A DNA stretch of 64,000 bases from Alistipes sp. (GTDB lineage Bacteria; Bacteroidota; Bacteroidia; Bacteroidales; Rikenellaceae): contig JAFTWZ010000001.1 of the NCBI GenBank assembly GCA_017465055.1, positions 62,001-126,000 of the forward strand, given 5' to 3'. The position numbers and the translations under genes were made by a program. Positions within the stretch are counted from its first letter, which is position 1. Every line of letters begins with the position of its first letter. Below, piece by piece: positions 57,272 to 59,185 of this stretch. Below the pieces are notes generated by a model. The model was not told the origin of the DNA and ran no database searches. It saw nothing but the letters and a program-made list of their open reading frames with translations.

Positions 57272-57517
57272 ATGATTATTACATTTAACGAATTGCGTCG
57301 CATCAAGGATAAGTTGCCCAGTGGCAGCTCGCAGCGCATAGCAGACGAATTGGGAATCGATGTTGACACCGTACGTAACTATTTTGGCGGTAAGCACTTT
57401 GAGGCTAAGGACGGTATCGGTATTCATATTGAGCAGGGCCCCGATGGTGGCGTTGTTACATTGGATGACACTACGATTTTCGACGCTGCAATGCGTATTC
57501 TTAACGAGCAGAAATAA
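57272..57517 (+). CDS. Small helix-turn-helix DNA-binding protein
   Basis: 81 residues. An N-terminal helix (NELRRIKDKLP), then a helix-turn-helix SSQRIADELGIDVDTVRNYF near residues 18-37, a short beta part, and a C-terminal DTTIFDAAMRILNEQK helix. The class is conserved in Bacteroidales, but no target is known. The last 19 bases, including the stop codon, recur perfectly at 58707-58725, so an insertion appears to have duplicated the gene end and left the protein intact. Confidence 0.85.
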   Translation: MIITFNELRRIKDKLPSGSSQRIADELGIDVDTVRNYFGGKHFEAKDGIGIHIEQGPDGGVVTLDDTTIFDAAMRILNEQK

Positions 57518-57538
57518 TATTTGTGCTGAGGCACGAAT

Positions 57539-57567
57539 TTAGGGCTGGCTGAATTAGTCAGCCCTAA
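57539..57567 (+). terminator. Terminator after HTH gene
   Basis: TTAGGGCTG (57539-57547) pairs with CAGCCCTAA (57559-57567), followed by TTATTTAT. A second terminator at 58759 follows the other copy of the direct repeat. Confidence 0.85.
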
Positions 57568-57623
57568 TTATTTATACGAATGGAGTTCTTTGCCAGAAGC
57601 CCATTGGTTATTTTGATTCAGTC

Positions 57624-57931
57624 GTAAGTTCCAGTAGAGAGAATATAAATATCGTCACCCCGAGGAGGAGCAAGTATTAGTTTGCAGAGAGTGATAACTC
57701 AACTATGCTCCGACGTGGGGGTCTTCCGCTTTTTATAGAGCCGTGCGGAGTGTGATTGATAGTCGTGCGTGACGTGCGGAGACTATTATAACTCTTACGT
57801 ATCAGTGCGGAAGTATAAACAAAGGAAGATCGCCACAGAATTGCATAGACCCAAGTAGGTATCACCACCGCTATTAGATGCAATTCTTCGCGATGACGTA
57901 TTAATGTTATTTATTACTCCACCAGAATTTC
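57624..57931 (-). repeat. 310-bp element, copy 3 (inverted)
   Basis: Reads as the reverse complement of copies 1 and 2 through the blocks atatcgtcaccccgaggagg, gaagatcgccacagaattgc and gcaattcttcgcgatgacgt, ending CTCCACCAGAATTTC. Ends are imperfect inverted repeats; length 308 bp, close to copy 2 (311 bp). No target duplication was recognised. Confidence 0.88.
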
Positions 57932-57969
57932 ATACTAATCCGTTATTTTACAAGTAATACTCCTGGAGT

Positions 57970-58001
57970 ATTGTTTGTTTTCAAAATTCTTAGTATATTT
58001 G
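57970..58001 (+). promoter_or_regulatory. Promoter of the leader RNA and lipoprotein
   Basis: ATTG at 57970-57973, 20-bp spacer, TATATTTG at 57994-58001. The start would be near 58008, leaving a leader of about 297 nt. Confidence 0.6.
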
Positions 58002-58054
58002 TAACGCTATTCTTGCAGATTAGCAGACATATTGAAAGTGTTTTTCGCAGTCCT

Positions 58055-58280
58055 TGTTAGAAAATGTGGAAGTTTTCAAGGAAGAGGACAGACGAACAGC
58101 ACTCATTCCTTGTATAGCTATGTGGCTATGCACGTTTCTTGTGCATACACCCCATACTATTCAGGTGTGGGGCATTGTATCGTTTATTCTTCCTTAGGTC
58201 TTTCCACAACCTTCTAACAGATAAACGGAAATCGACTCCACACTTTCTTATTTGTTATAATCTACCGCATAGGAGTTGAT
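58055..58280 (+). ncRNA. Candidate structured leader RNA or ncRNA
   Basis: Long-range stem: TGTTAGAA (58055-58062) with TTCTAACA (58212-58219), then TGTGGAAG (58065-58072) with CTTTCCACA (58200-58208). Inside lie two hairpins with 7-base loops: TATGCAC/GTGCATA (58127-58147) and CCCCATAC/GTGTGGGG (58150-58172). A third follows: ATCGACTCC/GGAGTTGAT (58231-58280). It lies between a promoter and the lipoprotein start. The pairing looks deliberate, but no family is recognised. Confidence 0.5.
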
Positions 58281-58304
58281 ACGGTACACAAATAGTTTAA
58301 TAGT

Positions 58305-58706
58305 ATGAGAAAGAGTTTATCTGTAATTGGTTCATTCTGTTTGGGCATCGGCCTAAGCATTGCAGCTCTTGCGTGCGCAGATGACAACCAACATTCAACG
58401 TCATCGCCAGAAATTCACATTAGCGATTGTATACCAACAATTTTAAGTTGTAGTAATGATAGTGGCCGTAATGATTCATTTTATTATGATGATAATGGAA
58501 GATTAATTAGGTTAGAAAGATATATTCCTTACGTTGATGTTGTGGAGACAGACTACGATATCAGCTATAGCGGAACAACTATAAACATTTTGAGTCATAA
58601 TAGCATTGGTCTCACATACACAACAACAATAACCGTGTCAGAAGAGGATATAGATAATGTTCATGCATACAACTTAGCTGTTCTATTACTATTACAGTTA
58701 TCATAA
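58305..58706 (+). CDS. AT-rich small lipoprotein (possible fragment)
   Basis: 133 residues. Signal peptide with lipobox AALAC at about residue 24. The mature part has FYYDDNGRLIRLERYIPY, reminiscent of the YDxNGRL strand of DUF4595/YD-repeat-like Bacteroidales lipoproteins, then TDYDISYSGTTINI. Known members of that type are longer, so this looks like a truncated copy. Base composition is clearly more AT-rich than its neighbours, suggesting transfer. Its stop codon abuts the direct repeat. Function unknown. Confidence 0.7.
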   Translation: MRKSLSVIGSFCLGIGLSIAALACADDNQHSTSSPEIHISDCIPTILSCSNDSGRNDSFYYDDNGRLIRLERYIPYVDVVETDYDISYSGTTINILSHNSIGLTYTTTITVSEEDIDNVHAYNLAVLLLLQLS

Positions 58707-58758
58707 TCTTAACGAGCAGAAATAAGGACACACATATTTTTGACGACTATAGAGAGTC

Positions 58759-58785
58759 AGAGCCGCACCAAAAAGGTGCGGCTCT
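58759..58785 (+). terminator. Strong intrinsic terminator
   Basis: Perfect 11-bp stem AGAGCCGCACC / GGTGCGGCTCT with an AAAAA loop, followed by TATTG. A run of nine G residues (58797-58805) lies just beyond. Confidence 0.92.
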
Positions 58786-58806
58786 TATTGTGTATAGGGG
58801 GGGGGT

Positions 58807-59013
58807 ACTATGTGTTATAATGGGATTCTATGGGTTACTATGGGTTACAATGAGTTACTATGGCAGGAAGGTTTGTGCGTTAACTTCGTAGTCGCTTACA
58901 TAGCAACTCATCTTAACTCATCTTAACTCATCTTAACTCATCTTGACTCATCTTGACTCATCTTGACTCATCTTAACCCATCTTGACCCATCTTAACCCA
59001 TCTTAACTCATTT
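58807..59013. repeat. Decanucleotide palindrome element (largest)
   Basis: Left arm of 10-bp units ATGGGTTACT (58807-58863), a core with GGTTTGTGCGTTAACTTCGT, and a right arm of about ten AACTCATCTT / AACCCATCTT units (58901-59013). Arms are inverted relative to each other. The remaining bases to 59180 are CTACCCT-type low-complexity DNA without a gene. Confidence 0.88.
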
Positions 59014-59185
59014 GCTCACGCGTAGAAATTAAGGGTAGTTAAGCGTGCAAGCCAGACGGTGAGTCTCGATCGTTGCTACTCGCTCCCCTTTAGGCGCGAG
59101 CTACACTTTCTACTACCCTATAACTACCCTCTCCGCCTCAGCGATGGCCGCAAGGTAAAACAAAATGGCTAATTGCTCACAGTTA

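Follow-up and report, generated by a model that had tools for sequence, protein, structure and literature searches.

Riboswitches and other cis-regulatory leaders with pseudoknot expression platforms are the described systems closest to the RNA reported here, which shares with them a promoter-proximal position on the strand of the following gene, conserved loops, variable helices that covary and a strand whose possible partners would compete. In contrast to them, the Alistipes leader type precedes many unrelated genes per genome, mostly encoding surface proteins, and has neither an Rfam match nor an assigned ligand. The insert in which we found it resembles 3'-end-targeting integrative elements, as the gene end is duplicated and the gene preserved, but differs from them in that it contains no integrase, that no second case was seen and that it carries a host-type gene module. 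Four Rfam motifs of Bacteroidetes, Bacteroidales-1, Bacteroides-1, Bacteroid-trp and 6S-flavo, are likewise structured RNAs from this group of bacteria according to the part of PMC2864571 consulted, but the leader loci match none of them. Mobile or repeat-type RNA candidates, a category described in the consulted part of PMC11109978, also occur in multiple copies per genome; unlike them, the leader shows a uniform orientation, and no transposase was noticed. No such RNA appears in the consulted parts of the literature searched, which included PMC8040213, PMC11109978 and PMC2864571 and stopped short of a 2017 survey of 224 motifs. The leader of the window (the whole stretch of 64,000 nucleotides from an Alistipes sp. 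contig that was analysed) matches no Rfam family at E values up to 1, and six other leader loci, five of which lie in other genomes, match none at E values up to 0.5. One listed Rfam match, Thr_leader, lies at 58674-58792, outside the leader, and was attributed to chance, its 25.6 bits falling far below the cut-off of 55. The RNA thus appears to be a cis-acting structured leader that matches no Rfam family and is unusual as a shared module before many unrelated genes.

The leader is located within a segment of 1,208 bp (57518-58725) directly downstream of a small, genus-conserved HTH gene encoding 81 aa (57272-57517, forward strand). From left to right, this segment contains a terminator-like hairpin, T1, just past the HTH stop (57539-57567, forward strand), a copy of a dispersed repeat of about 290 bp (57642-57936), an operator-like palindrome at the left boundary of the shared module (57950-57978, forward strand), a promoter box (57994-58001, forward strand), the strong fold of the leader (58006-58285, forward strand) and a gene encoding a lipoprotein of 133 aa (58305-58706, forward strand). 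The explanation that we favour, and consider probable as a whole, is a one-off insertion which brought the lipoprotein gene behind a promoter and a cis-acting RNA switch module. An Alistipes lineage gained the 1,208 bp right behind the conserved HTH gene, with duplication of the last 19 bp of that gene, and with them a small, apparently intact lipoprotein gene already placed behind an operator-like palindrome, a promoter and a leader of about 280 nt. The dispersed repeat and the genus-wide structured RNA module had both been overlooked in an earlier, sequence-only reading, which described the segment as a foreign-looking, non-autonomous cassette. The dispersed repeat has 53 further full or partial matches in its own genome, several of them close together on one contig (C12, C25, C35 and C47, for example), and by eye it shows imperfect inverted ends.

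The promoter box, TAnnTTTG, stands before the first leader hairpin and is found in 67 of 69 leader copies, against 4.7% of random 60-nt windows; we take it to be the -7 promoter motif of Bacteroidetes type, so that transcription would start just before this hairpin. Conservation among the copies is clear from about 40 bp upstream of the -7 box and faint to about 60 bp, beyond which it averages 0.08 bits per position. The leader RNA itself extends for about 280 nt, its ends being judged from the alignment, and shows a fold z of -6.4 for 58010-58260 and a covariance-model match of 191 bits at 58053-58227. The structure alignment was derived from 90 model matches, which gave 76 non-identical copies, then 73 after removal of two truncated copies and one lacking the core motif, and finally 69 after removal of four near-identical ones. 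These 69 non-redundant copies share a structure whose 11 helices comprise 71 pairs: 93.8% of the cells are paired, against 41-51% when the partners are slid by 1-3 columns. Changes on both sides of a pair occur in 403 cells, whereas shuffles, which do not keep relatedness, give 121.5 (sd 9.7); the structure was drawn from the same alignment as was counted. The closing helix (helix 2), with its 5' strand GAAAGUG at 58034-58040 (forward strand), is paired in 99.6% of cells, and helices 4 and 6 are hypervariable yet paired (95.9% and 94.7%, respectively). The 3' pseudoknot CAACUCC/GGAGUUG (helix 10), whose GGAGUUG strand is at 58272-58278 (forward strand), is paired in 93.4% of cells and shows changes on both sides in five of its seven pairs. 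This covariation shows the leader to be a genuine RNA structure under selection, with a closing helix and a 3' pseudoknot. A 3' hairpin around GGAG is weak, with 63.0% of cells paired; 62% of 65 copies, compared with 31% of shuffles, have stems of at least 5 bp, and no GGAG was found in four of the 69 copies.

The hub strand CGACUCCACACUUUC (58233-58247, forward strand) has three possible partners, at 58272-58278, 58165-58172 and 58034-58040. The second of them, GUGUGGGG (helix 9, forward strand), could either form its own hairpin or pair with 58236-58243. Within the CNNCUCCACACUUUC strand, the CUCCACAC part can pair with GUGUGGGG and the CACUUUC part with GAAAGUG, and the pairings overlap one another, as a switch would require. 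The GUGUGGGG:CUCCACAC alternative would cross helices 3-7. All of its 552 cells are paired, yet the shuffles also reach 99.7%, because these columns hardly vary: four of the eight pairs never vary and only one shows changes on both sides, so that this alternative represents a pairing potential with almost no covariation. A single conserved strand has three possible pairing partners, and for this reason we consider the leader most probably a cis-acting conformational switch governing expression of the surface lipoprotein behind it. Once the leader is folded, competition for the hub strand would decide the expression of the downstream gene.

The features that mark a cis-acting leader are a promoter upstream, here recognised by its motif only, a gene of the same strand downstream, and a conserved secondary structure with compensatory changes, and all of them were found. 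An independent small RNA or ribozyme acting in trans, whose position before genes would be a by-product, would account for the long and highly conserved loops and for the promoter box of its own, and the U-run directly after the closing helix could end such a free RNA. It is nevertheless unlikely: conservation includes the pseudoknot partner past the U-run and hence concerns the read-through RNA, and the longest downstream ORF is on the leader strand in all 62 testable copies (those of the 69 with at least 500 nt downstream). Downstream proteins were obtained for 63 of the 69 copies, no ORF being found in the other six, and their division by similarity into 25 groups also speaks against a trans-acting RNA. 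Shared repeats chain part of the 32-member group together, and it does not represent a single true family. A crude lipobox pattern is present in 43 of the 63 proteins, against 36 of 300 background ORFs. Among ten chosen downstream proteins, Pfam identified BspA-type leucine-rich repeats (three proteins), collagen-like, BACON, DUF4988 and WG repeat families, and also a protein kinase, DUF805, GIY-YIG and a sub-threshold nuclease match, with one protein lacking any family. The downstream genes are therefore not all genes of surface proteins, as kinase, GIY-YIG and DUF805 occur among them. With several copies per genome, the cis-acting leader would place unrelated surface proteins under one signal.

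Leaders of the same genome are no more alike (similarity 0.758, 11 pairs) than those of different genomes (0.755), and leaders that precede the same protein group are only slightly more so (0.769 against 0.755). As the genome makes no difference and the protein group explains little, exchange of whole or partial leader modules is probable; the helix alleles occur in 42 combinations in the 69 copies. The same figures would suit a repeat that is selfish or driven by recombination, spreads promoters and has a structure serving movement and not gene control. We regard this reading as improbable, given that the orientation to the genes is uniform, lipoproteins are preferred, and no transposase or integrase was noticed downstream, either in the first 55 residues or by Pfam on the ten chosen proteins. 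Extending the reading of the leader as a cis-acting switch, we tentatively propose that an undescribed class of RNA switch of about 280 nt, with a three-partner hub and a 3' pseudoknot, controls an interchangeable surface lipoprotein regulon in Alistipes and in scattered other Bacteroidales, and moves together with its promoter as an expression unit before newly gained surface genes. If this is true, a single RNA leader matching no Rfam family would control part of the variable surface of gut Alistipes, which would explain both the joint switching of unrelated surface proteins and the entry of a newly captured gene; with its well-defined helices, the leader is a directly testable RNA.

A BLASTN search with 57938-58310 gave matches at E values of 0.001 or less, some of them weak, in 154 of the 180 genomes of the genus, that of the window (G000) included, with scoring confined to the three best candidates per genome. 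In the 14 genus genomes chosen for the inner-domain model R1, G000 among them, the leader was found in every one, with 84 matches above 40 bits distributed as 2-11 per genome and two in G000. Matches below 40 bits, some of which are antisense to strong ones, were not counted as leader copies; this applies to the third, fourth and fifth matches of G000 (26-33 bits). Across the order, R1 matches eight of 295 genomes including G000, or seven of 294 others, which is a lower bound, as stricter filters were used and nine candidates were scored per genome. In another genus of the same family, neither of two genomes was matched. Four genomes, each assigned to another family (G387, G314, G044 and G388), show a match of at least 68 bits, although the best copy of G387 lies, by length, on the same contig as L173, which was already in the alignment, and is not independent. 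The match of G345 (44 bits) is doubtful, and the weak matches of G204 and G468 contain none of the motif and are probably due to chance. Six of eight further copies checked keep the closing-helix strand and the GUGUGG(A/G)G and GG(A/G)G partners; all six belong to the four genomes of other families, which also retain the hub strand, and show compensating changes by eye. A strict pattern scan of public genomes gave 67 stretches: 62 are labelled Alistipes or Rikenellaceae and five are labelled Muribaculaceae, Bacteroidales, Bacteroidaceae or Tidjanibacter, and the titles of 53 of the 67 name a ruminant hindgut sample. Outside the genus Alistipes, the distribution of the leader RNA as judged by these searches is patchy. 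The exact pattern is absent from the viral_contigs and plasmids sets. A leader of 78 bits is present on an unverified faecal scaffold of 5.2 kb labelled 'Bacteriophage sp.' (MT838511.1; L228:1879-2035), which is perhaps a bacterial fragment; with this one unverified scaffold in the phage set, carriage by phages or plasmids was treated as uninformative.

Regarding the insertion, the 19-bp sequence TCTTAACGAGCAGAAATAA is present at 57499-57517, where it forms the last 19 bp of the HTH gene, stop codon included, and again at 58707-58725 (both forward strand), directly after the stop of the lipoprotein ORF, the copies being 1,208 bp apart. The sequence-only reading had reported this arrangement and judged it improbable by chance, and both points are borne out: matches with up to three mismatches number two in the window against 0.02 expected. 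To the left, the match extends to 21 identical bases of 22. A further copy with two mismatches lies unlinked on another contig of G000. Since the six exact copies found in other genomes (180 scanned) are all at HTH gene ends, the 19-mer is the conserved 3' end of the HTH gene. The insert has a G+C content of 35-44% in 500-bp windows, against about 51-57% in the neighbouring genes.

The best match to the locus among the 180 genus genomes, the window itself aside, is G079, whose HTH protein is 100% identical to that of the window. In G079, GACACATCAATTTTTGACGACTATAGAGAGTCAG comes immediately after the HTH stop, with an HU-like gene behind it, and the sequence after the HTH gene is a homolog of 58727-58797 (alignment score 76, whereas none of 100 shuffles exceeded 36). 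The region at 58726-58797 (forward strand), which includes a terminator, T2, is homologous to this empty site and represents the original region downstream of the HTH gene. Because G079 has the empty site, with the gene end in a single copy, the 1,208 bp are a gain and the right repeat copy is the remaining end of the ancestral gene. The comparison thus shows that 57518-58725 was gained with duplication of the last 19 bp of the HTH gene, and it supports the earlier claim of an insertion at a gene 3' end with the gene preserved.

The rest of that claim, a site-specific and recurrent cassette, fared less well. In this reading a non-autonomous cassette enters gene 3' ends and restores the gene, with the integrase supplied elsewhere. 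The targeting of gene 3' ends is a known habit of integrases, the gene end is exactly restored (19 of 19 bases identical) and an empty site exists. As had been stated, the insert contains no integrase or recombinase: its largest ORF is the lipoprotein of 133 aa, which leaves no room for one. A second copy of the own gene end was found only in the two records of this locus among 61 records, which represent 54 genomes (with two entries each for G109 and for six genomes that include G000); most of the records reach about 1.5 kb downstream of the HTH gene; in the other 53 genomes there is none within a median of 1.5 kb. A pattern scan of the 180 genomes gave no linked pair of the 19-mer elsewhere, and neither the gene-end repeats nor the relatives of the lipoprotein provided a second case. 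Across the 180 genomes these relatives are only distant: seven matches outside G000, in six other genomes, are 23-41% identical over partial stretches. At the six places examined (L046 was left out), the open frames are of 138-158 aa in five and of 287 aa in one, against 136 in the window, and since five of six are of similar size the lipoprotein gene appears intact. The covariance model places a leader upstream of three of the six relatives (L040, L041 and L042), and L044 is too near a contig start to show one. In G109 (L097:1171-3550), the same leader family precedes a different lipoprotein, of 613 aa, in the same gap between the HTH and HU-like genes, and no gene-end repeat of this kind accompanies it. 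Site specificity and recurrence thus found no support, which makes the cassette quite improbable; the absence of a second gene-end repeat from the other records covered, the distant lipoprotein relatives and the G109 module without repeat lead us to prefer a single recombination event. Either one crossover with a circle that contained a short fragment of the HTH 3' end or homology-anchored illegitimate recombination could account for such an event. Given the same leader family and a different lipoprotein in G109, the gap has received leader-lipoprotein modules at least twice, the G109 case being independent. A chimeric assembly join at the insert, formally still conceivable in a genome that is incomplete and partly contaminated (49 contigs, 84% complete, 4.5% contamination) and with a short repeat at both joins, is very unlikely, as the left and right flanks both match G079 in order and a 19-bp word is shorter than usual assembler k-mers.

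The HTH protein is present in 43 of 61 genomes searched and the DNA of its gene in 164 of the 180 genus genomes; Pfam gives only weak HTH matches, below the cut-off. An HU-like gene starts 139-455 bp past the HTH end in 22 of 30 locus records, G079 included. In G142 and G086 (L100 and L102) the HTH gene has other neighbours and no HU-like gene was found in the 8 kb examined, so this gap has been rearranged in both genomes. The hairpin T1 resembles the HTH terminator of G117 (score 42 against a shuffle maximum of 23, the best of 29 loci), but in a genus-wide search G117 is not among the matches listed and short terminator matches in G003, G036 and G010 appear instead; T1 was accordingly not relied on as proof of a foreign HTH neighbourhood. 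Between T2 and the HU-like gene of the window, 58802-59035 contains runs of repeats of about 10 bp, first of GGGTTACTAT type and then of ACTCATCTTA type, which are partly complementary to one another.
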